From Calditrichota bacterium (GTDB taxonomy: Bacteria; Calditrichota; Calditrichia; Calditrichales; Calditrichaceae), in assembly GCA_003854985.1 (NCBI GenBank), contig RQOG01000061.1, positions 19,227-83,226 of the forward strand: 64,000 nucleotides of DNA, written 5' to 3'. Positions 4,280 through 27,860 of this stretch are shown here, in pieces. A model generated the notes under the pieces. The model searched no databases. It saw nothing but the letters and a program-made list of their open reading frames with translations, and was not told the DNA's origin. A program made the position numbers and the translations under genes. Each line of letters starts with the position of its first letter. The stretch's first letter is position 1.

Positions 4280-5341
4280 ATGTATCTGTCCAAACCAAAT
4301 ATCTTGTTGTTTTCTGCCGGCCCTTCTCCGGAAAAAAGGATTTTAAACGTATTTAATAATGCTCAATTTCAACTGGAAACGGTGCATTCTAAAGAAGCCT
4401 GCCTGGAAGCCCTGGAAAACGGCCAATTTGACCTGTTTATTTTTTTTGCGCAAAAATCTGTTCCGCATCTGACTGATTTTTTAAACAATATACATAGTTA
4501 CTCCCCCACTATGTTAACCTGTTGCCTGGGACCATTTGAAAGCAGTAAAAATATCTCCATGGATTTTAACCTGGATTATAAGGTGATTAAAGAGGGTAAA
4601 TATTTTGATCAGTATATGCGCAACATGGCTTTCCTGGCTCATAAAATACAGACACAGTCTGATCTTTCCGCTATTCTGATCCATGATTTAAGATCGCCGA
4701 CGCAGAGTATCATCAATTACCTGGAATTATTGAATAACCAGGTATTCGGCGAAATGAATGAAGGCCAGTTGAGAATGATCGGTAACGCTCTTAAACTAGG
4801 GGAAAACCTTATTCATTTGCTTGAAGAATTAAGTCTGGTGCATGTGTTCGAAAGAAAAGAATTTGTACTCTACAAATCGCCTTTGAATCTAAAAGAGTGT
4901 TTAAACCGCGTATTAAAATCACTTTGGATTCAGGCGGATAAAAAAGAAATAAAATTTGTGCCGCAGATTCCGAATGTTTTACCGGAGATTACCGCCGACG
5001 GCCCGCGGCTGGAACGGGTGCTGTTTAATCTGATCACCAACGCTATAAACTATACGCCGCAGCGGGGCGTCATTCGTATTATCGCTGAAACCGGCGAATC
5101 CGCAAAACACGAATCCGGTATTATCTTCCGGGTGATCGATTCCGGACCTGGTATCCCCGAAGAAGAACTGGAATACATTTTTGACAAATATTACCGGGTG
5201 CTTGGAAAAGTCCGTAAACACAAAGGATTCGGATTGGGACTCTACATCTGCCGACTGATTGTCGAAGCGCATGACGGCAGGATCGGAGCGGTTAACAACC
5301 GTGAAGGCGGATCAACCTTTTATTTTTCCCTGCCCGTCTGA
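4280..5341 (+). CDS. Sensor histidine kinase with a degenerate receiver-like N-terminus
   Basis: A 353-residue cytoplasmic protein. Residues 1-115 have an alpha/beta pattern like a response-regulator receiver (NILLFSAGPSPEKR... DLFIFFA), but no conserved phosphoacceptor aspartate is clear. A HisKA domain follows with the H-box HDLRSP (His135), then the ATPase domain with the N-box NLITNAINYTP, G1 DSGPGIPEEE and G2 GFGLGLYICR. There is no membrane segment, so the stimulus is probably cytosolic or comes from a partner protein. No response regulator is adjacent, making this an orphan kinase. It is the last recognisable gene before the kelch/T9SS gene, with a 178-bp gap. Confidence 0.88.
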   Translation: MYLSKPNILLFSAGPSPEKRILNVFNNAQFQLETVHSKEACLEALENGQFDLFIFFAQKSVPHLTDFLNNIHSYSPTMLTCCLGPFESSKNISMDFNLDYKVIKEGKYFDQYMRNMAFLAHKIQTQSDLSAILIHDLRSPTQSIINYLELLNNQVFGEMNEGQLRMIGNALKLGENLIHLLEELSLVHVFERKEFVLYKSPLNLKECLNRVLKSLWIQADKKEIKFVPQIPNVLPEITADGPRLERVLFNLITNAINYTPQRGVIRIIAETGESAKHESGIIFRVIDSGPGIPEEELEYIFDKYYRVLGKVRKHKGFGLGLYICRLIVEAHDGRIGAVNNREGGSTFYFSLPV

Positions 5342-5519
5342 CATAAAAACACTATCCATTTAACTGTAATTTATATCCCTCCCCAACCGCACCTATCAGT
5401 TTTTAACCACTTTTATTTTCCTTTTAAATCATAAGATTTACATACCGATTATAGAACTATGTTTGATAAGGATTTATACAAAAAAAATAAGAATAGAACA
5501 AAACCAATCAGGGGGACAC

Positions 5520-7016
5520 ATGTTTACAATTTCCAAAACCATTTGTATGCTGACATTATTTGCAACTTTCATTTATGCTCAAAGCTTTTCTCCGGAATTC
5601 ACCGCAGGCCCGGATATGAACATAGCCAGAATGGGCCATTACACCGTAACTTTTGATGACGGCGGTGTATTGCATGTCGGCGGTCGTGGAACCGGTTTTA
5701 CTTCACTTAATACCAGTGATCTTTTTACCACCGGTCCGGATACTTTTGTCATAGATACAATGAATTACCCGCATGACTTTGGCGCCGTAGCCCGTTTGAA
5801 TAATGGTAAAATTCTCATCGCCGCCGGTGCGGCAAATTCAGGTGTGGCGCCGGGGTATAACACAGCGGAATTATATGATCCCGAGACTGAAACCTATACG
5901 CCGACCGGCGCTTTAGTTTATGCCCGGATGAATGTGGCCGCCGCCACGCTGAACAACGGCAAAGTGCTGATTGTCGGCGGCTGGTATAATGTAACAAGCA
6001 GCGCTTACGGTGAGATATACGATCCTGAGGCCGGTACTTTTTCTGCAACCGGCGCCTTAAATACGTCAAGAGCGAATCCGATTGTTCTGCCTGCTGAGGA
6101 CGGCGGCGCTATTATTATCGGCGGAAGCCCAACCTACGGCGGAAATACCATCAAGCAGGTCGAATATTATAACCCGGGATTGAATACATTTACCGTCTTA
6201 AAAGACTATTTATTTTCCGAGCAGGATCCGAACTGGGTTCCGATGAATAATGATTCCTATAACCGCTTAATGGATGTACAGAAAATCGATGATAATAACT
6301 ATTTATTAATGGCGTATGATAATTCATCAGCCGATTCCACGTGTTACACCTTATTTACAGTGAATACGGATGATAAAACTATTACTAAATTTAATACAAA
6401 AAATAAACTGGCCAATTCCAAAACCCATAGTTTTTATGCGCCGGTTGTCGACAGGATTAACAACGTAGTCTATTTGCCGGCAATAAAAGCAGGCATTGAT
6501 CCTACGGAACTTGATCTATTTGCTCTTAATTTATCCGACAGCACGGTTACCATGTCTGATACAACCTATACTTTTCCTGCTGCGTATTACCTTACTTATT
6601 CATCGTTCCAACTTTTAAATGATGGCAGAATTCTGAACAGCGGCGGGCATTCTCAAACCGGTTATAACACCAATTTTTCACCGATTCCTAATACACTTTT
6701 TATCGAGCCAAAATGGGAATCTACCGTTATTCGTAATAACAGCCGGACTGCCGGTAATTTTATGCTTATCGATAATTATCCCAACCCGTTTAACAGCAGC
6801 ACAACGATTCAATTCAGTCTGGCAAAAAACGGATTGGTAACCATAGATATTTTAAATATTCTGGGCCAACTGGTAAAACGGCTCGATATGGGAGAGTACA
6901 CCAGGGGAACCCATACCTTACAATGGAACGCCGGTTCTCAGCCCTCAGGTATATATTTTTGCCGCCTGGCTACGACGGAAGGTGTAAAAGTGCGCAAACT
7001 TTCCCTGATAAAATAG
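5520..7016 (+). CDS. Secreted kelch-repeat protein with T9SS-type sorting domain
   Basis: A 498-residue protein. The start at 5520 is preferred over an in-frame ATG at 5463 because AGGGGGAC lies just before it and a normal signal peptide follows (ISKTICMLTLFATFIYAQS). Kelch-like blades recur through the first 350 residues (NNGKILIAAG, AELYDPETETYTPTGAL, NNGKVLIVGG, GEIYDPEAGTFSATGAL, NDGRILNSGG), indicating a beta-propeller. The C-terminus from NYPNPFN is a type A sorting domain for the type IX secretion system, ending VRKLSLIK. The protein is probably exported to the cell surface or medium; the ligand is unknown. A strong hairpin terminator follows. Confidence 0.85.
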   Translation: MFTISKTICMLTLFATFIYAQSFSPEFTAGPDMNIARMGHYTVTFDDGGVLHVGGRGTGFTSLNTSDLFTTGPDTFVIDTMNYPHDFGAVARLNNGKILIAAGAANSGVAPGYNTAELYDPETETYTPTGALVYARMNVAAATLNNGKVLIVGGWYNVTSSAYGEIYDPEAGTFSATGALNTSRANPIVLPAEDGGAIIIGGSPTYGGNTIKQVEYYNPGLNTFTVLKDYLFSEQDPNWVPMNNDSYNRLMDVQKIDDNNYLLMAYDNSSADSTCYTLFTVNTDDKTITKFNTKNKLANSKTHSFYAPVVDRINNVVYLPAIKAGIDPTELDLFALNLSDSTVTMSDTTYTFPAAYYLTYSSFQLLNDGRILNSGGHSQTGYNTNFSPIPNTLFIEPKWESTVIRNNSRTAGNFMLIDNYPNPFNSSTTIQFSLAKNGLVTIDILNILGQLVKRLDMGEYTRGTHTLQWNAGSQPSGIYFCRLATTEGVKVRKLSLIK

Positions 7017-7055
7017 GAAATAAAATTAAAATCTTTAACACTCCTCCAATGATGG

Positions 7056-7090
7056 TGCTCCGGAAAAATTTATTCCGGAGCATTTTTATT
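7056..7090 (+). terminator. Rho-independent terminator after the kelch gene
   Basis: A 10-bp perfect stem TGCTCCGGAA (7056-7065) / TTCCGGAGCA (7073-7082) with a 7-base loop is followed by TTTTTATTTT. It ends the transcript of the kelch/T9SS gene. Confidence 0.85.
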
Positions 7091-7196
7091 TTAAAATTCT
7101 TTGCACGTTGAAAATAAATAACTAATAAGATGCGTTATTTTTGACGAGCATTGAATTATAGGTAAAGTTTTAAATTGTTTTAATCAGAGATAAAAA

Positions 7197-7430
7197 ATGA
7201 AAATTCAGATCATGGCGGAAGACGGTGAAATCTTAGAGACCATTGAGAATGTTCAGAATTACCTGATGTCGCAGCATTCTATGGGTGTTTTGATGGATCA
7301 GCTTCTCGAAATATATAAAACCAAATACGCTCAATACATGTACGAAAAATATAAAAGAGACCGGAGAAGCGGAGAAGACCGGCGTCATATATCTCTCTCT
7401 ACCGATGCGCTTGATCGACGGGAACAATAA
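7197..7430 (+). CDS. Small charged protein, unknown function
   Basis: A 77-residue protein I do not recognise. The first 50 residues are a helical, moderately hydrophobic stretch (IQIMAEDGEILETIENVQNY); the tail is very basic and acidic, with YKRDRRSGEDRRHIS and DALDRREQ. The RRxxxDRR pattern resembles the linker seen around PilZ and small signalling proteins in delta-proteobacteria-like genomes, but no PilZ domain is present. It has its own intergenic region on both sides and faces the DUF4395 gene tail to tail. Codon use looks normal, so I take it as real. Confidence 0.5.
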   Translation: MKIQIMAEDGEILETIENVQNYLMSQHSMGVLMDQLLEIYKTKYAQYMYEKYKRDRRSGEDRRHISLSTDALDRREQ

Positions 7431-7461
7431 TCCGCCCTTTTCCGATTCCATGTCAGAGTCT

Positions 7462-7947
7462 TTACGCTGCTTTTTTACCGGGGAATCTGATTACACAATC
7501 CTCACATAATTCATCTTTGATTAACTTCATTTTAATAAGCAGACCGTATAATTTACACCCGGCGCAAAAACCGAAGGCCGATTCAAGAAATGAAAAAAAA
7601 GCCAAAACCGCTAAAGTAATATTCATATATCCTGTAAGGTCAAATATATGAAAAATCAGGGTGGACAGGCTGAGCAGAAACCCGATTAATGCGGCGAATC
7701 GTTTAGGATTAACCCTGTTAAAATTATTAATAAATGACAAACGAGGCGCAATAGTTTTACGGGCAATAAGGGCCAGAATGCTTATTTTAAAATAACCAAG
7801 CGTTCTGATTAAAAAGTCATAAGCAAGCAGGCCGATTAATATATAGGAATTGTAAATCATGGCCGCCAGACTCAGGATAAAGACCAGGAATGCCGTAGCG
7901 CGCACCCCGGAAGCAGGGATGGTAAAAAATTTATTTTGATGTTTCAT
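7462..7947 (-). CDS. DUF4395 family membrane protein
   Basis: A 161-residue inner-membrane protein with four hydrophobic segments (about 12-45, 80-100, 102-125 and around 128-140). The family pattern is clear: an early FxRxLGYF-like motif (FLIRTLGYFKIS), a basic loop (IARKTIAPRL... FNRVNPKRFAA), and the C-terminal CxxC motif GFCAGCKLYGLL followed by CEDC. DUF4395 proteins often pair with thiosulfate/sulfur-transfer or thioredoxin-like genes and the CxxC suggests a thiol role, but none is adjacent. The function is not established. Confidence 0.85.
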   Translation of the reverse strand: MKHQNKFFTIPASGVRATAFLVFILSLAAMIYNSYILIGLLAYDFLIRTLGYFKISILALIARKTIAPRLSFINNFNRVNPKRFAALIGFLLSLSTLIFHIFDLTGYMNITLAVLAFFSFLESAFGFCAGCKLYGLLIKMKLIKDELCEDCVIRFPGKKAA

Positions 7948-18398: not shown

Positions 18399-18833
18399 AT
18401 GATTGTCACAGTTGATACCAACGTTATTTTTTCAGCGCTTTATAGTAATAAAGGCGCTTCTCATTGTATTTTAAGATTAATCCTTGATGAAAAAATAAAT
18501 TTAGCGATCTCAACGCAGATTTATTTCGAATATTACGATGTTTTAATCCGTAAAAGCAGTTTAAAGCAGTTAAATTTATCGGTTTCTGAAATAGAAGACA
18601 TTCTGGATTTACTGGCTTTGCTTTCTCAGAAATATCATATCTATTATTTATTAAGGCCCAATCTTCCTGATGAAAGCGATAATATATTTGTGGAATGTGC
18701 ATTTGCCAGTGATAGTAAATATTTAATTACCGGTAATATAAAAGATTTCAAAAAAAGTGAATTAAAGGGCTTTAACTTTAAATTAGTAATGCCTGGCGAG
18801 TTTTATAAACTATGGAGTATAAAAAATGAGTAA
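18399..18833 (+). CDS. PIN-domain toxin (VapC/COG1569-like)
   Basis: A 144-residue putative endoribonuclease. The PIN fold signature is visible: VTVDTNVIFSALY at the N-terminus (first acidic residue), YFEYYDVLIRKS (the conserved Glu), then LPDESDNIFVECAFAS and KYLITGNIKDFKK (third and fourth acidic positions). Such toxins cleave RNA and are held inactive by a partner. The next gene overlaps it by 8 bp and encodes an RHH antitoxin, giving the less usual toxin-first order. A promoter abuts the start codon and no SD exists. The pair opens the accessory island, just ahead of the cassette array. Confidence 0.85.
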   Translation: MIVTVDTNVIFSALYSNKGASHCILRLILDEKINLAISTQIYFEYYDVLIRKSSLKQLNLSVSEIEDILDLLALLSQKYHIYYLLRPNLPDESDNIFVECAFASDSKYLITGNIKDFKKSELKGFNFKLVMPGEFYKLWSIKNE

Positions 18834-19089
18834 TACTCAGGTAGTAACCTTGAGAATGCCTAAAGAGCTAAAACGTCGTCTTGACAGAGAAGCAAAATAT
18901 CAGGGTGTATCGATAAATCAACTTGCTAATTATTTGGTAAATATTCAATTAACACATTTGGAATCTGTTTCCCTGTTAGAGTCAAGGCTGGAGAAGAAAT
19001 CTATCCGTTCTTTAAAAAGGAAGGTAAAAAGAACGATTGATAATGTACCCGAAAGAAATGTGCCATCCTGGGATTCGGTCAATGAATGA
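18826..19089 (+). CDS. Ribbon-helix-helix antitoxin
   Basis: An 87-residue protein. Residues 4-35 (VVTLRMPKELKRRLDREAKY, then GVSINQLANYLV) are a ribbon-helix-helix DNA-binding domain of the CopG/HicB kind; the basic C-terminal part probably wraps the PIN toxin. Its ATG lies inside the last codons of the toxin gene (8-bp overlap), so translation is coupled. The product likely neutralises the toxin and represses the operon promoter. No attC-like site was found directly after it, so I cannot say that the pair is a cassette. Confidence 0.85.
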   Translation: MSNTQVVTLRMPKELKRRLDREAKYQGVSINQLANYLVNIQLTHLESVSLLESRLEKKSIRSLKRKVKRTIDNVPERNVPSWDSVNE

Positions 19090-19120: not shown

Positions 19121-19446
19121 CTGAAATCAGCATTAGATATTGGAAATTAAAAAAAATGAATGTCGACTATCGATTAGCGAATAATAAATCATGAGGGAAT
19201 GGAAAGCTTGCAAACTTCGGCATTCAGCGTTAGGCATTTGATATTTGAAATTAAAAGATGAATGTCCAATAGCGAATATCCAATGACGAATAATGAAGGC
19301 GGATGACCTCATAAAGCTGGTCCAGATGTTTTTTACTGAAAATTTGATTTTATTATGAAAACCTTACAGGTTATTTATTTGTTTATATAAGGATTGATAA
19401 TACAAAGGTGTTTTGATATATTAAGAAAAAATTCTTACTAATATAA
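19121..19446 (+). repeat. Dispersed intergenic repeat, copy C
   Basis: It contains TATCGATTAGCGAATAATAA, GGCATTTGATATTTGAAATT and AATGTCCAATAGCGAATATC followed by AATGAAGGCGGATGACCTCA. It then has the AT-rich 3' part GATTTTATTATGAAAACC ... TTTTGATATATTAAG ... TTCTTACTAATATAA, ending at the cassette boundary GTTATGTG (19447). Compared with copy D it lacks about 100 bases in the middle. It fills the gap between the antitoxin gene and the lipoprotein gene; no gene in it. Confidence 0.85.
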
Positions 19447-19530
19447 GTTATGTGTTTATTTTCAAATAAATATTTACTATTACATTTCTTAAATATGAAA
19501 ATCATATTCACATACTTAATGAGGTATAAA

Positions 19531-20028
19531 ATGCAATATTTTAAATTCTTTTTTATTGTTTTGGTAGTATTTATAGGCTGCCAGCCAAATACCAAGACTG
19601 AGCCTTTTGATTTAGAGGCTGCAAAAAAGGTTGTCAACACTCAATTAGACAATCTTCACCAATCTTCGAAAGCCAAGGATATTAGTTTCTTAAGAAACAT
19701 GTTCACTGATGACGGCCTTTGTTTAGGAACCGATCCTGGAGAATTTTGGGACAAAGAACAAGTTATAAATGTAAACTTGCATATGTTTGAGGATGAATCT
19801 ATGGTATTCGATTACTCAATTGATAAACGTGAAATACGATTTAATCCGGATGGGAACTCAGCAATTTGTGTGGAACAATTTACTTGGAATTCGTTTAGTC
19901 AGAAGATTCCCCTTCGTTTAGTAACTCATTTCATAAATATTAACAATGATTGGAAGTTGGATTTTGTCAGTTGGAGTTTGATACCTCTAAATGCTGATTT
20001 AGTCAAATTAAACAAGGCACTGGAGTAA
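19531..20028 (+). CDS. NTF2/SnoaL-like lipoprotein (cassette gene)
   Basis: A 165-residue protein. The start at 19531 is chosen because AATGAGG precedes it and a lipoprotein signal follows directly (FKFFFIVLVVFIGC). Longer frames upstream run through the repeat and cassette end. After the anchor, residues 35-155 fit the SnoaL/DUF4440 NTF2-like fold: LEAAKKVVNTQLDNLHQSSK, DISFLRNMFTDDGLCLGTDP, GEFWDKEQVINVNL, then a beta-rich half ending NNDWKLDFVSWSLIPLN. NTF2-like proteins may be enzymes or small-molecule binders; no catalytic residues can be assigned. It lies between cassette boundaries at 19447 and 20279. Confidence 0.7.
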   Translation: MQYFKFFFIVLVVFIGCQPNTKTEPFDLEAAKKVVNTQLDNLHQSSKAKDISFLRNMFTDDGLCLGTDPGEFWDKEQVINVNLHMFEDESMVFDYSIDKREIRFNPDGNSAICVEQFTWNSFSQKIPLRLVTHFININNDWKLDFVSWSLIPLNADLVKLNKALE

Positions 20029-20050
20029 TAGTTACATTAAATACTTTTAT

Positions 20051-20123
20051 ATCGTGTAAAAACCTACGCATCATTTAATTCAACCTTGAATTAAATGAAT
20101 GTGTTGGATTTTGTTTTTACGAT
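20051..20123 (+). terminator. Long imperfect hairpin after the NTF2-like gene
   Basis: An outer stem ATCGTGTAAAAAC (20051-20063) / GTTTTTACGAT (20113-20123) encloses a perfect 12-bp hairpin CATTTAATTCAA (20072-20083) / TTGAATTAAATG (20086-20097) with a CC loop. It could end the transcript, though no clean T-run follows; it may also belong to the structured end of the cassette. Confidence 0.45.
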
Positions 20124-20162
20124 CATTAACATCAATTAAAATTTTTAAGCATTTAATGCACA

Positions 20163-20285
20163 CTAAAACCTTGTTTACAGCGGATCGCTAAAGCGCTCCG
20201 CGAATTCCGCGTGGACGCGGAATTCAAAAACACAACATTCGGGACAGTCGTTCTTGTCCCGTGGCCGCTGAAACAGACGTTAGCA
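20163..20285 (+). repeat. attC-like recombination site 1 (end of NTF2-like cassette)
   Basis: Left inner arm TGTTTACAGCGG (20172-20183) pairs with right inner arm CCGCTGAAACA (20265-20275), leaving one unpaired A at 20177, the extrahelical base typical of attC. The outer boxes are CTAAAAC (20163-20169) and GTTAGCA (20279-20285). Between the arms are three nested hairpins: GCGGATCGC/GCGCTCCGC (one mismatch), the perfect 11-bp GAATTCCGCGT/ACGCGGAATTC (20202-20212, 20215-20225) and CGGGACA/TGTCCCG. The crossover is expected at G^TTAGCA. The left outer box is a poor match, which lowers confidence. Confidence 0.65.
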
Positions 20286-20302
20286 GTTTAAAGAGGGCGG
20301 AA

Positions 20303-20659
20303 ATGCAAAATTATAATTCAAACATTGTAAAAGGAAATCATGCTGAAGAAAATGATCTCAGAACATTTTTAGATGGCAGTGTACGTTCTACCGTTTTACT
20401 GCGGTCCTGTGCTGTTGGCTTAGGGACTTACAACCCGGGGTGGAAATGGAGTGCTCATGCCGGAGCACAAACAGGAAAATCTTCAGAGAACCACATCGGG
20501 TATATTTTATCCGGAAACATGATAGTAAAAGATTCAAATGGAATTGAAATAGAAGTCGGTTCTGGTGAAGCTTTTGAGGTTGGCCCCGGGCATGATGCAT
20601 GGGTCATCGGTAATGAGCCTTGTATCGCACTTGATTTTATTCCAATAAAAAACTGCTAA
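20303..20659 (+). CDS. Cupin-domain protein (cassette gene)
   Basis: A 118-residue protein; the ATG at 20303 follows AGAGGGCGGAA and lies just inside the cassette boundary at 20279. The single-domain cupin fold is seen in GWKWSAHAGAQTGKSSENHI, GYILSGNMIVKDSNGIEIEV and GSGEAFEVGPGHDAWVIGN; the His in SAHAG and GPGHDAW are candidate metal ligands. Small cupins like this resemble cupin-2 proteins such as those binding sugars or acting in detoxification; the substrate is unknown. Its TAA stop lies inside the attC left box GCTAAC, as often seen in integron cassettes. Confidence 0.8.
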   Translation: MQNYNSNIVKGNHAEENDLRTFLDGSVRSTVLLRSCAVGLGTYNPGWKWSAHAGAQTGKSSENHIGYILSGNMIVKDSNGIEIEVGSGEAFEVGPGHDAWVIGNEPCIALDFIPIKNC

Positions 20660-21149
20660 CAATGCAGTCAAGAAGATTTGCTGTTTTTCTTGCCGATTGA
20701 AAGTCTATAGTTTTAATAGTCTTCACACCCTATTGTCTATAGGCACCATTAACCCGCCAACCCTTTATCGTCATCGTTGTCGTGACCGGCTGCACTTATC
20801 CATAAAAAAGCTTTCACCAATCGGCGTTCGACATTTGATATTGGAAATTAAAAGATGAATGTCCAATAGCGAATATCCAATGACGAATAATGAAGGCGGA
20901 TGATCTGACGAAGCTGGTAAAATAATTTTTTTCTTCATATTATTCAAAGTAGTTATTCCTGATATGATTTAAATGGTTGAACGACATAAAGATAAACAAC
21001 TATGATTACAGGATATATTAATAATATTTTCCTGAAAAAGTGATTTTATTATGAAAACCATACGGGTTAAGTACCTATTTATTTTAAGATTGATAATAAA
21101 AATAGATTTTGATATATTGAGAGCAAATTCTTACTAATATAGGTTATGC
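20651..21149 (+). repeat. attC-like site 2 (end of cupin cassette), apparently split by repeat copy D
   Basis: AACTGCTAAC (20651-20660) is the exact complement of GTTAGCAGTT (20279-20288), the start of the same cassette. A left inner arm (20666-20682, AGTCAAGAAGATTTGCT) can pair with AGCAAATTCTTACT (21122-21135), leaving C and GA unpaired. The right box is GTTATGC (21143-21149). Spacers of 5 and 7 bases fit attC geometry. The loop is about 440 bases and contains repeat copy D, so either the site is very long or a repeat inserted in it. Confidence 0.55.
20765..21142 (+). repeat. Dispersed intergenic repeat, copy D
   Basis: It runs from TTATCGTCATCGTTGTCGTG through CAATCGGCGTTCGACATTTG, ATTGGAAATTAAAAGATGAA and CCAATGACGAATAATGAAGG to an AT-rich 3' part shared with copy C (GATTTTATTATGAAAACC, TTTTGATATATTGAGAG, TTCTTACTAATATAG). 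It ends exactly at a cassette boundary, GTTATGCAC. No gene. Confidence 0.85.
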
Positions 21150-21254
21150 ACTTTAAGATTATAATTTTCAATTAATAAGAACATTAAAAGTATAAGTTTC
21201 ATTCTTTTCTAAAAGTTACATAATTCTTAAAACAAAGGAGAAGACATGAATATA

Positions 21255-21470
21255 TCGTCGGTTGACAAGCCCCGTTTAGAACCGTAATTCTAAGCGGAGC
21301 GGAAAAAGGCTTAAGGCTGTATCATTATCGTGGGACACGGATCCCGTAAAGGAGACTGGTCAGGCCTTGAGCGTCTGTCGCCATAGGGCATGTTAGACCC
21401 TGAATAGGAGTGTGGCACAACCGACAAGAATTCTGCTCTAATATGATAAAACCAAAACAATAGGAGGAGC
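21255..21470 (+). ncRNA. Putative bridge RNA of the IS110 element
   Basis: The 5' non-coding end of IS110-group elements encodes a bridge RNA that pairs with target and donor DNA. Here a stem-loop CCGTTTAGAA/TTCTAAGCGG opens the region (21272-21297), followed by further GC-richer, self-complementary stretches up to the transposase SD. A TTGACA box lies at 21262 with a weak -10 seventeen bases on. The placement rests on family knowledge; the guide loops were not resolved. Confidence 0.5.
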
Positions 21471-21477
21471 AGAGACC

Positions 21478-22488
21478 ATGAGTTATATAGGAGTTGATTT
21501 ACACAAGAATAATTTTCAGGTATGCTATATTAATGGTCAACAGAAAAAGTTTTCTCATTATAGTATTCATGACCTGGAAAAGTTTAAAGAGACGTTAAAT
21601 AAGGAAGATCACCTGGCGGTAGAATCGACGGGTAACACGCGTTACTTCATGAATCAGGTAAAAGAGGCTGTAGGGCGTGTTGTAGTGGTAAATCCCCGCC
21701 AGTTTAAAGTAATTAGTAATTCGGTAAAGAAAACAGATAAACAGGACGCGGAGCAGCTTGCACTATTTCTGAGCAAAGATATGCTTCCGGAAGTACGCAT
21801 GAAAGATGAAAAACGCAGTCAGTTAAAAAGCCTGGCCAACACACGTGATAAGTTGGTAAAATTACGCACGGCGTTAAAAAATAAAGTGCACAATATTTTG
21901 AACGCCCATGGCATTGTTACCCCGCGCGAAGCGTTTAGCAGCAATAAAAGTCTGGATGGTTTAAAAGATTATGCGGTAAATGAACTGGCCCATCTTGAGA
22001 TAGAAGTGATAGTCAGCCAGATTCGTTCTTTAAATGAAGGTATAAAAAGACTGGATAAGCAGATTGAAGACGCTGGTAAAGACTTAGACGGTTTTGAAAA
22101 CATCACCAGCATAAAGGGTATCGGTAAAAAAAGTGGAACGATTCTATTGAGTATCATAGGCGACATAAATGATTTTGCCGATCCGGGTAAACTGGCCTCC
22201 TTCTTCGGTGTTGTTCCGCGTATAAGCAATTCCAATGAGAACATTCATCAGGGACGCATAACCAAACAAGGCAGCAAGCTGGGTAGAACAACTCTTGTCC
22301 AGTGTACGTTAATCGCCATAAGATATTCGGATTATCTGAGAAGTTTCTATGAACGGCTAAAGCTAAAAAAAGGAAGCGGCAAGGCCATAATAGCCACAGC
22401 CCGCAAGTTTTTAGATATTATTTATATGACCTTAAAAAATAAATTAATCTTTGAAGATTTCCCTAATTTCGTGTTGAAATCTTCATAA
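21478..22488 (+). CDS. IS110-family transposase (DEDD/Tnp_20)
   Basis: A 336-residue recombinase of normal length. The N-terminal RuvC-like DEDD domain starts YIGVDLHKNNFQVC (first Asp), has VESTGNTRYF (Glu) and TDKQDAEQLALFLSKD (two Asp). The C-terminal transposase-20 domain includes ITSIKGIGKKSGTILLSIIG, LASFFGVVPRISNSNE with the conserved catalytic serine region, and TKQGSKLGRTTLVQCTLIA. The gene looks intact. AGGAGGAGCAG provides a strong SD. With the bridge RNA it catalyses excision as a circle and RNA-guided insertion. Confidence 0.95.
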   Translation: MSYIGVDLHKNNFQVCYINGQQKKFSHYSIHDLEKFKETLNKEDHLAVESTGNTRYFMNQVKEAVGRVVVVNPRQFKVISNSVKKTDKQDAEQLALFLSKDMLPEVRMKDEKRSQLKSLANTRDKLVKLRTALKNKVHNILNAHGIVTPREAFSSNKSLDGLKDYAVNELAHLEIEVIVSQIRSLNEGIKRLDKQIEDAGKDLDGFENITSIKGIGKKSGTILLSIIGDINDFADPGKLASFFGVVPRISNSNENIHQGRITKQGSKLGRTTLVQCTLIAIRYSDYLRSFYERLKLKKGSGKAIIATARKFLDIIYMTLKNKLIFEDFPNFVLKSS

Positions 22489-22517
22489 TACTAAAGATTT
22501 TATCATAGGAGAATATT

Positions 22518-25442
22518 ATGGGTAAGCATTTTAGGTATTTTACTATTTTCATTATTTTAATAATTGTGGAATCCCATGCTACTGATTATTTGACCAATGC
22601 CATTTCATGGAAGAACTGTTGCCAAGCATATAATCAGGGTTATCCAGCTGAAGATTTTCAGACAAATTTTGTTGGTGACTTTAATGGTGATGGGCTTGAG
22701 GATAAACTTTATATGTGCAGTGGAAAATATTGGGTAGCCTACACTGAGAATAAATCAACCTATGGAGTTCAAGGTTTTTCCGGCGAAAGTTGGACAAAGG
22801 AAATAGTATTTGATAGTAATTCTGAATTTGAAAGACGTGCAATAGGTGATTTTAATGGAGATGGCGCAGATGATATTCTGATTATTAGGGCATATTCAAA
22901 CAACATTAAATTGGAAGTTGCTCTTTCAGTACAAAAAAGATTAGCTAACTCAGCTGGACCATATGGCCAATATATAGATGTATCTGATGGTAGTTATTTT
23001 TTTAAACCTAATGAAGTATGGGGAACGACAATAACCGCATTTAAGAGTGCATTTGAAAACTCATTTGTTAAAGACGCAAAATTAAATAAAGTATATATTG
23101 GTGATGTAACTGGAGATGGTTTGGATGATATTGTAATTCTATATTATAATAAATATATCTATGTAATAAAATCTGTATATACACCAAATTTTTCTACTTC
23201 TGGTGCAGATTTTGCAAATTATTCTTTCTCAAGCCATCAATACAAATTAAATCTTGGGAGTTATGTAGATGAATTTTTTCTTGGTGATTTTAACGGTGAT
23301 GGTTACGATGATATTACGTATACAAAAATATCACCATATAATAACAATTTCTATATAGCCTTAAATAAGGGTAAAGATTCAGATACTAGTCCCGGTTATT
23401 TTTCAACAAATGAATTTACAGGAGCATTCTATTCACCATATGATGCAAGTGGTAACCACGGTTCATTGTCCATTTCAAATTTTCCATTGCACTTTATTTC
23501 AGATTTTAATGGTGATGGATTAGATGATAAACTTTATCTATGTTCAAGTAAATACTATATCTCACTTTCGAAGATTAGTCCGGATGGAAAGCCTTATTTT
23601 CAAAGTGAGATAATTTGGGGTGCTATTGATTGGTCTAACTATGGCAGAAGTTATATTGGCGATTTTAATGGAGATGGATTTAATGATATTCTAAATGCAA
23701 GGACAAACTCTACATGGGATGTTCGACTTGCAGATAAAGAAGCTATTTTTGATAATGCTACATTTGCACAAGATGGACATAACGGTGAAGCCAGAATGGA
23801 GAAAATAGTAGCCTGTTGGATGTTTCCTTTTACTTACCTTTGGCCAGAAAGAGGATGGAGTGCATTTGGTTACCATCCAAATGAGAGATATATGTCAGGA
23901 TTCCCATATATCACTCCCATAATAAATTGGGGTTCAACTGATTTTCCCTTAATTGAAACAAATTCAGCAACTTGGATTGAAGGACCTTATTCTTATTTGG
24001 ATTTCACTAATAATCCCCTATCATATTCAACGGAAGATGTTTTAAAAATGCAAATTGAGTCTATTATTAAATCCGGTATTAAAGTAATCGTCGTAGATGT
24101 AACTAATGGTTTTATCGATGTGGATGAATTTAATCATCAAGCATATGATAGTAGTGGAGATAGTACTAATTATAGTAATGTAAGAGAAGCATTGACAAAT
24201 ATATTCGAAATTGTAAAAAATAATAATTTAGATATAAAAATTGCAGTAGGACTTGGCAAGGAATTTTGGGGAAGATTCGAATTGAAACCACATAGCTATG
24301 ATCCGTTTATACCTTGTTATGGAAATGCAAATTTAGTAATAGGTTGGGAAGCTCAAAGAAGTAGACAGAGAATTGCTTTGGATAAAATTGAGTTAGATTA
24401 TATTACTCCTTATAATGACAAATACTTTTACTATCAAGGTAAACCACTCGTAGTCACCTATGTTATACCATCTCGTGATTTTCCAATGACAGCTGATGGC
24501 TATCTTCAAGAGACAATCCCAAGAACATTTTTTCCTGATTTTAATGTTAAAATTGCTCTGAGTGCAAATAGTACATATGCATGGTTTAGAGGGAACAATG
24601 CTATATTCCAAAACGGCTTGGATAATACAAATTATTGGAGTTGGGGCTCTGAATTACTTAATAATAATATTTATGGGGCTGATTCTAAAACTGCAAATTT
24701 TCCAAGTTATTCCAATGAAAAGTTACCCTATAATGCAGAATGCATGTCTGTAATGCCGGGTAGAACCATGGTTTGGCACAATCTAACAGACAGGGATGGT
24801 AATGGTGTGCCTCGATGGGCAGATAATAATAGCAATCATTACTTTGAATCCTGGAAATCTGTAATAAATGCCGATCCGCGTATTGTCTTAATATGTGACT
24901 GGAATACATGGGGTGAAGCGACTTCTATTGAAGCATGTACAACAGGACCCGGTAAAACCTGGTATGAAAGTGATGGCTGTACACCAGATCCCGGGTATGA
25001 TGATGCACAAGACATACAACTGTTTAGGAGCCCTTGGCACAATAGTAGCGGTACTAATGATCCATTCTTTTATCAAAATTTAACTAAAGATTTTTCAGAT
25101 TATTTTGTTGGTAATACTTATACTCCACCAGTATTAAGTAAAGCAAATTTTAACGAAAACTTAATAATTGAGAATCCAATATCTTTTGAGCTAAAACAAA
25201 ATTATCCGAATCCATTTAATCCAATCACAAAAATAGAATTTTCAATTCCCGAAGATTCAGATATTTATTTAAAAATTTATAATGTTTTGGGTCAGGAAGT
25301 TTATTTTTATCATAAAGACAATTTACTAAAAGGATATCATACAATTAATTTTGATGGATCGAATTTATCAAGTGGTCTTTATATTTATACATTTAAGGCA
25401 GGCAAATTCGAAAAGAAGATGAAAATGTTATTGGTTAAATAA
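22518..25442 (+). CDS. Large secreted FG-GAP / glycosidase-like protein with T9SS sorting domain (cassette gene)
   Basis: A 974-residue protein with a signal peptide (FRYFTIFIILIIVESHA). Residues 50-420 hold six FG-GAP/VCBS-type blades, each with a Ca2+-binding DxNxDGxxD loop (DFNGDGLED, DFNGDGADD, DVTGDGLDD, DFNGDGYDD, DFNGDGLDD, DFNGDGFND), predicting a beta-propeller. Residues about 430-880 resemble the TIM-barrel of GH71/GH99-like enzymes (IKSGIKVIVVDVTNGFIDVD, LDIKIAVGLGKEFWGRF, RIVLICDWNTWGEATSIE); the exact family and catalytic acids are not certain. From QNYPNPFNP on is a T9SS type A sorting domain. TAGGAGAATATT gives the SD, right after the IS110 element. It is AT-rich like its cassette neighbours. 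Confidence 0.8.
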   Translation: MGKHFRYFTIFIILIIVESHATDYLTNAISWKNCCQAYNQGYPAEDFQTNFVGDFNGDGLEDKLYMCSGKYWVAYTENKSTYGVQGFSGESWTKEIVFDSNSEFERRAIGDFNGDGADDILIIRAYSNNIKLEVALSVQKRLANSAGPYGQYIDVSDGSYFFKPNEVWGTTITAFKSAFENSFVKDAKLNKVYIGDVTGDGLDDIVILYYNKYIYVIKSVYTPNFSTSGADFANYSFSSHQYKLNLGSYVDEFFLGDFNGDGYDDITYTKISPYNNNFYIALNKGKDSDTSPGYFSTNEFTGAFYSPYDASGNHGSLSISNFPLHFISDFNGDGLDDKLYLCSSKYYISLSKISPDGKPYFQSEIIWGAIDWSNYGRSYIGDFNGDGFNDILNARTNSTWDVRLADKEAIFDNATFAQDGHNGEARMEKIVACWMFPFTYLWPERGWSAFGYHPNERYMSGFPYITPIINWGSTDFPLIETNSATWIEGPYSYLDFTNNPLSYSTEDVLKMQIESIIKSGIKVIVVDVTNGFIDVDEFNHQAYDSSGDSTNYSNVREALTNIFEIVKNNNLDIKIAVGLGKEFWGRFELKPHSYDPFIPCYGNANLVIGWEAQRSRQRIALDKIELDYITPYNDKYFYYQGKPLVVTYVIPSRDFPMTADGYLQETIPRTFFPDFNVKIALSANSTYAWFRGNNAIFQNGLDNTNYWSWGSELLNNNIYGADSKTANFPSYSNEKLPYNAECMSVMPGRTMVWHNLTDRDGNGVPRWADNNSNHYFESWKSVINADPRIVLICDWNTWGEATSIEACTTGPGKTWYESDGCTPDPGYDDAQDIQLFRSPWHNSSGTNDPFFYQNLTKDFSDYFVGNTYTPPVLSKANFNENLIIENPISFELKQNYPNPFNPITKIEFSIPEDSDIYLKIYNVLGQEVYFYHKDNLLKGYHTINFDGSNLSSGLYIYTFKAGKFEKKMKMLLVK

Positions 25443-25501
25443 ATTATAATTCTAAAGTAATAAAAATTTATAGTACTCTAAGTTATTAATAATAGCGCAT
25501 T

Positions 25502-25609
25502 GTGCATAACAAGGGCATTAACGGCGACTGGATCAGCCGCCATTCTATTACGAAAAGTTCATGGGCTTGGAAAGGTCATCGGCCAGCGCGTTATGCCCCA
25601 GCCGTTAGC
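25502..25609 (+). repeat. attC-like recombination site 3 (end of glycosidase cassette)
   Basis: GTGCATAAC (25502-25510) is the exact complement of GTTATGCAC at the cassette start (21143-21151). The 19-base left arm at 25513-25531 pairs with the 16-base right arm at 25583-25598 over 16 base pairs, leaving three unpaired bases on the left side (T at 25518/19, G at 25523/24, A at 25527), the hallmark of attC. The right box GTTAGC is at 25604-25609. Loop 51 bases. Confidence 0.85.
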
Positions 25610-25620
25610 TTTTTAGGAAT

Positions 25621-26007
25621 ATGAAGATATATTCTATATTATTAACAATTATTTTTGTCTTGCTATTTTTTTGTGAACAGGATAAAAAGTCTGTGCATTT
25701 TCGTCCACCTCATCCCGATAGTATAGGTGTTGGAACAGCAGAATATTTGCAAGGCGAAAAACAAGCAAATTTAGATTTTAAAAATGATAATTCTAAATTC
25801 TATCTCGTTGGATTAATAAACTTAAATTCTCTGAGTGCTGAAAATATGAGGAAAGAATTTAAAAGTAAATATAATATTGAACTAAGCTTTGAAGTCTGTA
25901 CGGGGGGAAGTGCATATAAAAACGGGTATAATAACACAATTAAAAAATTAGTTGAAAAGAAGCATGAAATTAGTCTCAAAAAAGAAGTTCATGAATGGAT
26001 AAATTAA
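25621..26007 (+). CDS. Small putative lipoprotein, unknown (cassette gene)
   Basis: A 128-residue protein starting 12 bases inside a cassette (boundary at 25604), with TTTTTAGGAAT as SD region. The N-terminus is a signal peptide with a lipobox-like end (IIFVLLFFCEQDKK). The rest has no recognised family: a loop with HFRPPHPDSIGVGTAEY, a beta strand FYLVGLINLNS and a basic helical tail ending HEWIN. The gene is very AT-rich. Genes of unknown function are the rule in integron cassettes, so its context is informative even though its role is not known. Confidence 0.65.
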   Translation: MKIYSILLTIIFVLLFFCEQDKKSVHFRPPHPDSIGVGTAEYLQGEKQANLDFKNDNSKFYLVGLINLNSLSAENMRKEFKSKYNIELSFEVCTGGSAYKNGYNNTIKKLVEKKHEISLKKEVHEWIN

Positions 26008-26012
26008 ATATT

Positions 26013-26040
26013 AAAAGCTAACACCTTTTAAAAGGACTTT
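26013..26040 (+). repeat. attC-like site 4, left half
   Basis: AAAAGCTAAC (26013-26022) is the exact complement of GTTAGCTTTT at the start of the same cassette (25604-25613). The stop codon lies 6 bases before it. A right half would be the ...CTAATATAT|GTTAGT end of repeat copy E (26622), about 600 bases away; inner-arm pairing between them is weak, so the site may be damaged. Confidence 0.6.
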
Positions 26041-26185
26041 GTCATTAGGAAAACAGTACTCCCGTAAAAAATCTCTATATTTTTTAAATATATACCATCA
26101 ATTTTTTCCTTGAACCATAATTGACAAATAGCATTTGCCTTTCGAATAGCCATTGCGGCTGACCAGACTGGCCTTTAGAAATAAT
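26041..26185. other. Intergenic stretch before repeat copy E
   Basis: AT-rich, with no gene or clear hairpin. It joins the left half of attC-like site 4 to repeat copy E. Confidence 0.5.
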
Positions 26186-26621
26186 ATCGAATATCGATTA
26201 GCGAATGATGATTTCAGATTTAAATAGATCCCATTGTGCCCGTTGATCGTCATCGATATCGTTATCGATATCGTAATCGGCTATTCTTCTTCAGTAAAAA
26301 GGCTTCCGCCAATCGGCGTTCGGCATTTGATATTGGAAATTAAAAGATGAATGACCAATAGCGAATATCCAATAACGAATAATGAAGGCGGATGACCTGA
26401 TAAAGCCAGTTAAGCAATTTTTTCTGTATGTTATTCAATAACAGCATGATTGATATAGTTTAATGGCCTGATAAATATTTGCTGCCATAAACAATATAAA
26501 AAATTTATTCTGAATAAAGTGATATAAAATAGTAATCCGGGTATTCTAAGTATAATTTACACAGGTAATTGTTAGCGGTAATATCTTTTATTATATTGAG
26601 ACTAAATTCTTACTAATATAT
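26186..26621 (+). repeat. Dispersed intergenic repeat, copy E (longest)
   Basis: It contains ATCGATTAGCGAATGATGAT, a strongly ATCG-periodic stretch (GATCGTCATCGATATCGTTA), CAATCGGCGTTCGGCATTTG, ATTGGAAATTAAAAGATGAA and AATAATGAAGGCGGATGACC, then an AT-rich end TTCTTACTAATATAT. It stops exactly at the next cassette boundary, GTTAGTTTGC (26622). Its first part is shared with copy A, its second with copies C and D. Confidence 0.85.
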
Positions 26622-26647
26622 GTTAGTTTGCTTTAGGAGTAAATGAT

Positions 26648-27571
26648 ATGTCTTCATTGGTTCTTGAATTACAGAATGAAGCAATAGATTCACAAAAATC
26701 TGTTGTGAGTTTGTTACGTAAAGCCCTTGTTATTTCAAGAAAATTAAATTTAGTAGATTTTGATAACTGGATAAATAATGAACTAAATGGTTATTCAAAA
26801 GGTGATGAAATTCCTGAATATCGTAGGGTTCAAGGAGATGTAAAAGCATTCAATCCATACAATGGAATGTGGATGCCTATAGTATGTGAGGATTCAAAAA
26901 AAGCGGAATTTATGTCAACCAGAATGATTGGTCAGAAAATTACTGAATTAGAAAAAATTGATTTAAAAGGTGATTCTGGAGTATTACATGTTCCATTTGC
27001 TAAAAATATAGAAACTAAACTAATGAATAGCATGGATCTACATTCTAAACCAGTGCTCATCGTTCCATCAACTTCAGTGCATGGAATTATTGAATCAGTT
27101 AGAAATATTTTACTAAACTGGGCATTAAAATTAGAGCAACAAGGTGTTTTAGGTGAAAATCTAATTTTCAATGAAATTGAAAAGACGACAGCATTATCGA
27201 ATCAACAAATTAATATAACTAATTTTCAGGGTATTTTAGGAGATGTGACAAACAGTTATGTTGAACAATCAAATTTACAAAGAATCACAAAAAATGATTT
27301 TGAATCACTTAAAAAATATTTGATTGATCAATTGAAACTTAATGCTGAAGATGTTTCAGAGCTTGAAAAAGCAATTAAGAATGATCCAAAACCAAAAACA
27401 AAAGAAAAATTCGGTTCGTATGTATCGAAGTGGCTAGGTAAAATTATATCGAAATCTGCTGAAGGTCTGTATAAACTATCGTTAAACTCAGCCGCAAGTG
27501 TTCTTGGACAAGCAATCTGGACATATTATGGTTTTTTGCAAACTAACCAATCGCTTAAGACATTATGTTAA
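26648..27571 (+). CDS. AbiTii-domain abortive-infection protein (cassette gene)
   Basis: A 307-residue protein. The first ~190 residues match the AbiTii domain: SLVLELQNEAIDSQKSVVSL, LLRKALVISRKLNLVDFDNW, NELNGYSKGDEIPEYRRVQG and a later IIESVRNILLNWALKLEQQG followed by GVLGENLIF. AbiTii is half of the lactococcal AbiT anti-phage system; proteins with only this domain are scattered in defence loci. The C-terminal ~100 residues carry helices and a possible membrane-active segment (LSLNSAASVLGQAIWTYYGF). TTAGGAGTAAATGAT gives the SD. The last codons run through the attC left box, so the C-terminus may have been reshaped by cassette recombination. Confidence 0.85.
   Translation: MSSLVLELQNEAIDSQKSVVSLLRKALVISRKLNLVDFDNWINNELNGYSKGDEIPEYRRVQGDVKAFNPYNGMWMPIVCEDSKKAEFMSTRMIGQKITELEKIDLKGDSGVLHVPFAKNIETKLMNSMDLHSKPVLIVPSTSVHGIIESVRNILLNWALKLEQQGVLGENLIFNEIEKTTALSNQQINITNFQGILGDVTNSYVEQSNLQRITKNDFESLKKYLIDQLKLNAEDVSELEKAIKNDPKPKTKEKFGSYVSKWLGKIISKSAEGLYKLSLNSAASVLGQAIWTYYGFLQTNQSLKTLC
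27538..27562 (+). repeat. attC-like site 5, left half (end of AbiTii cassette)
   Basis: GCAAACTAAC (27538-27547) is the exact complement of GTTAGTTTGC at the start of the same cassette (26622-26631). It is followed by CAATCGCTTAAG, the usual layout of an attC left side. The right half seems lost to the IS remnant downstream. Confidence 0.65.
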
Positions 27572-27641
27572 AAAGTAATTGATGATGCGCGCACTCCTTT
27601 CATACTTTAGAGACAAAAAAGTGTTTAAGAAAGGAGTTATC

Positions 27642-27860
27642 ATGCAAACGCAAAATCGTTCTTTGAATTTTAGCGGTCAGACTTTTTATATCGGCCTGGT
27701 GCTTGTTTTTAGCCCGTCAGTAGCCGGGTAGGCCGGATCAGCCGTTGATTCAATTCCGAAAAAAGTGCATCGGCACAGCGCAGTCATGTGCCGCGCCATT
27801 GGGCTGAATGCGGGGGCTGCCGGGGAAGAAACGCCACAGCGGATATTAAGGGCAGCCTGA
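27642..27860 (+). pseudogene. Internally deleted IS110-family element
   Basis: ATG at 27642 with SD AAGGAG opens a 29-codon frame MQTQNRSLNFSGQTFYIG..., the N-terminus typical of another IS110 subgroup (usually continuing into a DVHKK box). It then runs into unrelated sequence and a TAG at 27729. The following GC-rich stretch to about 27860 looks like the right-end non-coding part of such an element. The body of the transposase gene is missing. It differs from the intact IS110 at 21240. Confidence 0.65.

Follow-up and report, generated by a model that had tools for sequence, protein, structure and literature searches.

The standard picture of an integron comprises one attI site, one promoter, and one array of gene cassettes. 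Clusters of attC sites lacking integron-integrases (CALIN) are recognised by IntegronFinder 2.0 as at least two attC sites with no intI nearby (the rule as given in PMC9024848), and in Vibrio cholerae the cassette promoter is placed 65 bp upstream of the crossover in the relevant part of PMC8876359. The stretch of DNA analysed here, hereafter the window, comprises 64,000 nucleotides of contig RQOG01000061.1 (positions 19,227 to 83,226, forward strand) from assembly GCA_003854985.1 of a Calditrichota bacterium. A preliminary description had proposed that it carries an integrase-less, CALIN-like array. The integron nature of its cassettes is well supported, but the remainder of that label leaves out what matters most: an intact intI lies on another contig (C93), and units 1, 3, and 5 stand directly behind attI copies accompanied by an intI stub, not behind attC sites. 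The window is made of three short attI-led platforms in a row, with two, two, and one cassettes. We give about even chances to a broader interpretation, that this is a distributed integron, in which one integrase serves promoter-bearing attI landing pads across the genome, so that cassettes are spread over numerous small platforms, each with expression of its own, and not kept in a single, largely silent array, and that such an arrangement has arisen more than once in the order, with different attI sequences, and is missed by integron finders.

A search of the whole genome with TIGR02249 returned one hit above the cut-off of 265 bits, an intact intI at C93:9549-10490 (463.6 bits), so that the genome, in contrast to the window, is not integrase-less; within the window, tblastn with this IntI gave no match, in agreement with the preliminary description. 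Residues 13-327 of the protein can be aligned to an integron integrase of known structure, 2a3v, and its closest named relative is found in a metagenome-assembled genome of Calditrichia (63%), so that the organism probably belongs to this class. The predicted attI lies between intI and the first C93 cassette and ends AAATTCTTACTAATATAG/GTT. The cassette starts at G/TT, GTTATACAGA, and its end box, located just before the contig end, matches this start over 10 nt. Elsewhere on the contig (L047), positions 5054-7556 hold four consecutive small minus-strand genes and, at 6468-6592, an attC-like site; these may form a further array. An integrase-like fragment on C4 was discarded; it is a frame of 68 residues, and no attI copy was found on that contig.

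The repeat preceding unit 3 is 84% identical to the intI-borne site over 257 bp, upstream stretch included, and the same BLAST search matched other contigs. A sequence-only model, R1, built from 18 attI copies, finds 24 places in this genome at E<=0.01 and 23 at E<=0.001, the intI-borne one included, and no copy in 14 other genomes of the family; a search of a plasmid collection gave no match. Besides the intI-borne site there are 22 further copies, beside which no IntI match was found in the stretches scanned. Three are in the window, on the plus strand, directly before units 1, 3, and 5, while units 2 and 4 are preceded by an attC-like site. These integrase-less copies span 19333..19446 (type A; R1 75.3 bits, E 1.5e-20; alignment A1), 21029..21142 (type A; 84.3 bits, E 2.2e-23), and 26508..26621 (type B; 81.4 bits, E 1.8e-22). 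Contigs C16, C2, and C87 carry three copies each, associated with different genes. This argues against an assembly or binning artefact in which copies would come from other strains or organisms, as does the finding that the cupin and AbiTii proteins of the window have further been recorded from a 161,793-base contig, which exceeds C16 in length; even with 180 contigs, 1.51% contamination, and several copies near contig ends, we regard such an artefact as the most improbable of the explanations considered. On C2 (L058, L212), three type B copies follow one another, each with its own genes, and the spacers from box to next attI have blocks in common.

The copies are of two types, A, which resembles the intI-borne site, and B. 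We aligned 20 of them at the junction; 11 belong to type A, 8 to type B, and one was placed in neither group. Between positions -30 and 0, both types have an internal identity of 83%, and A compared with B gives 81%. Identity then drops abruptly at G/TT, to 37% within A, 27% within B, and 32% for A compared with B between +3 and +30. Further upstream, from -90 to -30, types A and B are 43-44% identical. All 20 aligned copies have the pattern TTGNNN-17-TATATY (TATATT or TATATC), whose first base is 51 to 55 bp ahead of the junction and which we predict to be a cassette promoter. In the window, the predicted promoters are TTGATA-17-TATATT at 19394..19422 (copy 1) and 21090..21118 (copy 2), and TTGTTA-17-TATATT at 26569..26597 (copy 3), all on the plus strand. 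Because the aligned copies are related, these hexamers reveal conservation, not twenty independent finds. The junction GTT is present at the expected place or within 2 nt in 14 of the 22 further copies, replaced by ATT or TTT in five, and by neither in three (C2m, C153, C6). The dispersed repeats are very probably attI copies. They could instead be a dispersed promoter-bearing repeat that is no integron site, stands before genes by chance, and has one copy beside intI. The copies are indeed repeats with a conserved promoter-like motif, but they end at G/TT, several lead into units that have attC arms and a matching end box, and six bear remnants of the intI start. This renders a simple promoter repeat very unlikely.

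These remnants inform on the order of events. The six stubs, among the 22 further copies, cover coding nucleotides 916-919 to 954-967 of 987, i.e., about 13 to 17 codons, and are all cut within one codon of each other. Three are on the minus strand of the window: at 19296..19333 in platform 1 (coding nt 916-954; 82% to the C93 intI across 39 bp), at 20893..20945 in platform 2 (89% over 53 bp), and at 26385..26436 in platform 3 (77% over 52 bp). The left flank across the intI cut is common to the window copies at 19447, 21143, and 26622 (84-92%), a second flank is common to C64, C17, C3, and C72 (75-89%), and both flanks are found with both attI types. Within each flank group the genes behind the copies differ. 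Since these copies share the intI cut and the flank, their content has changed since the loss of intI, and the simplest reading is that platforms already devoid of intI received or exchanged cassettes, hence in trans. The main rival holds that these are fossil integrons: whole integrons were duplicated with their cassettes and then lost intI, the solo attI being remnants that capture nothing. The stubs are what such a process would leave behind, and integron duplication with pseudo-intI genes has been described (in the part of PMC2426708 that concerns us). Yet a fossil would not be expected to change its content after the loss of intI, nor to preserve, across types A and B, its hexamers and final 30 bp when the intervening and more distal upstream DNA has diverged to the level given above. 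We see the fossil scenario as possible but clearly the weaker of the two, and regard the loading of gene cassettes by one IntI into integrase-less attI copies, in trans, as more likely than not.

The units behind the window copies bear out most of what had first been described. The five unit-start GTT boxes (19447, 20279, 21143, 25604, 26622) are all present, and four of the five units (2 to 5) do close with an exact complement of their own start, of 9-11 nt. For each start we took the longest exact complement within 4.5 kb downstream, read back from GTT, and compared it with 300 shuffles. The complement has 11 nt in unit 2 (end 20660, p = 0.000), 9 nt in unit 3 (end 25510, p = 0.040), 10 nt in unit 4 (end 26022, p = 0.010), and 10 nt in unit 5 (end 27547, p = 0.027), and unit 1 has no matching end within this distance (p = 0.497). 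The genes are close to the boxes, with 84, 24, 17, and 26 nt from box to first gene in units 1, 2, 4, and 5, and unit 3 opens with an IS110-type transposase gene 335 nt after its box. A stop codon does lie inside a box, that of the cupin gene in the box ending at 20660.

Across the genome, we compared each of 22 starts both with the DNA that follows it and with the DNA that follows the other starts (the C156 start being set one base late). Self-matches scoring at least 9 were obtained for 9 of the 22 starts, against 6% of mismatched pairs. They include seven of the 20 starts at attI copies (window 21143 and 26622, C93, C17, C2a, C2b, and C3), and six of the 19 integrase-less attI starts have a matching end box. 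For two of the nine, window 25604 and C17, the downstream DNA contains similar boxes, to which two other starts match as well or better. We took the first open frames behind 18 copies and scanned ten, which gave two BrnT toxins, a PIN protein, a UvrD helicase, a CTD7 protein, a beta-helix secreted protein, a PEGA protein, one weak DUF4145 match, and two frames without match. The UvrD helicase scores to GajB models and the CTD7 protein to LmuA. A neighbouring dehydrogenase gene was considered as an anchor for the empty site, but its five homologues in relatives are only 32-41% identical and provide no synteny anchor.

In the window, all five cassettes are on the plus strand. Cassette 1 (19447..20278, GTT at 19447) encodes a SnoaL-like putative lipoprotein (gene 19531-20028; Pfam SnoaL_3). 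Cassette 2 (20279..20660), whose first attC box matches its start over the 11 nt given above, encodes a cupin (20303-20659) with Cupin matches below the Pfam cut-off and 816 homologues, of which the best 120 are listed. Cassette 3 (21143..25603) encodes an FG-GAP protein with a sorting domain (22518-25442), and the IS110-type transposase gene (21478-22488) interrupts it between the attI junction and the FG-GAP gene. Cassette 4 (25604..26022) encodes a small putative lipoprotein (25621-26007) for which a Pfam scan gave no match. Cassette 5 (26622..27571) encodes an AbiTii-family protein (26648-27571; Pfam AbiTii 155.6 bits, also detected by PADLOC) with 110 homologues, its 10-nt box ending at 27547. 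Just 5' of the first platform, at 18399-19089, are genes for a PIN toxin and a ribbon-helix-helix/HicB-like antitoxin.

The window has two full attC-like sites, 5.2 kb apart and with no intI nearby, both on the plus strand and with both arms: that of cassette 1 at 20163..20285 (bottom-strand fold z -4.67), whose first box is not an exact match to the cassette 1 start, and that of cassette 3 at 25504..25610 (z -1.34). Units 2, 4, and 5 retain only the first arm (a search for a second arm in cassette 2 found none), with half sites folding at z -1.57, -1.88, and -1.55. Four further sites of the genome fold at z -3.18 (the end of the C93 cassette), -3.68 (C17), -1.33 (C2a), and -0.01 (C3), so that folding energy alone supports three of the six full sites. 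An Rfam scan of the window gave no match. Our custom attC scanner is unspecific (90 hits against 65 per shuffled set, and scores of 18.0 and 17.9 for the window sites against up to 19.8 in shuffled sequence), and was therefore used only to locate arms.

Two blocks of DNA look like insertions aimed at attC. Block X (26023..26160, plus strand) directly follows the AAC box of unit 4, and the junction is identical at three places on C2 (59476-59611, 55154-55290, 61703-61730), where the block joins the AAC boxes of different cassettes at exactly the same base. Block Y (27548..27735, plus strand) interrupts the attC of cassette 5 after the first arm, and like blocks are found at three other places (L213 from 3195, C72:76-267, and C3:24103-24305); in all four it breaks the attC-like arms after the motif CTTAAG. 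It is likely the end of an insertion sequence, although its longest frame has no Pfam match. The C12 copy holds a 180-residue frame, the start of which resembles IS110 transposases and for which Pfam gave no match.

IntI is found above the cut-off in 13 of 21 genomes of the order, this genome included, and we queried eight relatives with their own intI-upstream segments. In three of them, copies of other attI sequences stand without an integrase: G008 has four such additional copies, with an IntI fragment near one (near C94); G012 has two, plus one beside a frameshifted intI (C13); and G019 has three clear ones, of which C9 and C2 belong to one attI and C19 to the other, besides four weaker ones. 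The fragment and the frameshift are visible stages of intI loss, which speak for the fossil scenario. Homology ends at or within a base of G/TT in G008, G012, and the clear G019 copies. Of 14 junctions, 7 have a matching end box, compared with 3.3% of the mismatched pairs, and two of the seven share a cassette start; among the ten junctions with neither an intI nor a broken intI beside them, three have such a box (G012 C436, G019 C9 and C2). In G001, about 30 repeat hits of part of the segment have the look of a generic intergenic repeat, and the hits in G009 have the same explanation. G009 shows only its own copy of its own segment, whereas G001 is counted neither among the relatives with extra copies nor among those with only their own. 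Just ahead of intI, the upstream segments of G005, G008, G009, and G019 carry palindromic motifs rich in GTAC that may be an SOS-type operator. As an outgroup control, 12 genomes of several phyla were searched with their own intI-upstream segments, and six (G022, G026, G027, G029, G030, G032) gave additional, partial matches, each some 75 to 250 bp long. IntI was not matched in the 13 stretches retrieved, and G032 and G027, the two genomes that were aligned, show no clear G/TT junction. The phenomenon may reach beyond this order. In these two cyanobacteria (L256-L262), several extra copies of the intI-upstream segment are rich in inverted repeats.

Taken as a distributed integron, the genome would work as follows. 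The single intact integrase would supply IntI for attI copies scattered through the genome, attI x attC recombination would bring cassettes into platforms already without intI, and the predicted promoter in each aligned copy would transcribe its first cassette. Such entry after intI loss would make each platform a first expression position of its own. A number of observations weigh against this interpretation. First, a strong complement is absent in 13 of the 22 starts tested, and in G008 none of four junctions has a matching end box. Second, a proper GTT is missing from 8 of the 22 copies other than the intI-borne one, so that some have decayed, which, with the many copies lacking a matching end box, is in line with fossil integrons. 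Third, type B lacks an intact intI of its own. Fourth, promoter-like sites are at chance level in the 9 kb scanned (40 against 42.3 in shuffles), and a pattern spanning the final 21 bases was first used to select those copies that BLAST had not hit, which favours conservation there, albeit not at the hexamers. Fifth, half of the relatives queried (G005, G009, G011, G014) have only their own copy. Finally, homologous recombination between platforms could be another source of part of the differing genes.

If the distributed integron is real, dispersed attI would free cassettes from the order of the array, and one enzyme could place genes at many expressed loci, those now behind copies including AbiTii, an LmuA-like protein, BrnT and PIN toxins, and secreted proteins. 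Part of the inventory of lone cassettes and CALIN would then consist of attI-led platforms unseen by current tools, which would miss them because they do not look for attI. Our search of the open PMC literature, subscription literature being largely outside it, found no description of dispersed attI (multiple, solo, orphan, duplicated, or secondary).

Several known systems come close. The IS1111-attC insertion sequences, as presented in the relevant part of PMC11187229, resemble block Y, whose four occurrences all break attC arms at a common position, but no intact transposase was matched in that block. With CALIN, the platforms share cassettes without intI nearby; they are instead headed by attI copies, and the window has only two full attC-like sites, 5.2 kb apart. 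The sedentary chromosomal integron, with its intI, attI, cassette promoter, and single array, is alike in the IntI family, the site beside intI, the cassettes joined at G/TT, the attC-like ends, and the predicted promoter upstream of the crossover, but here the further attI-like copies have no intI and each heads a short set of cassettes. Lastly, pseudo-integrons arising from intragenomic duplication (PMC2426708) also have a duplicated platform and a decayed intI. They are described, in the portion of that work relevant here, for intI genes, whereas in this genome it is the attI core that persists in many copies, with cassettes that differ across one shared intI cut.

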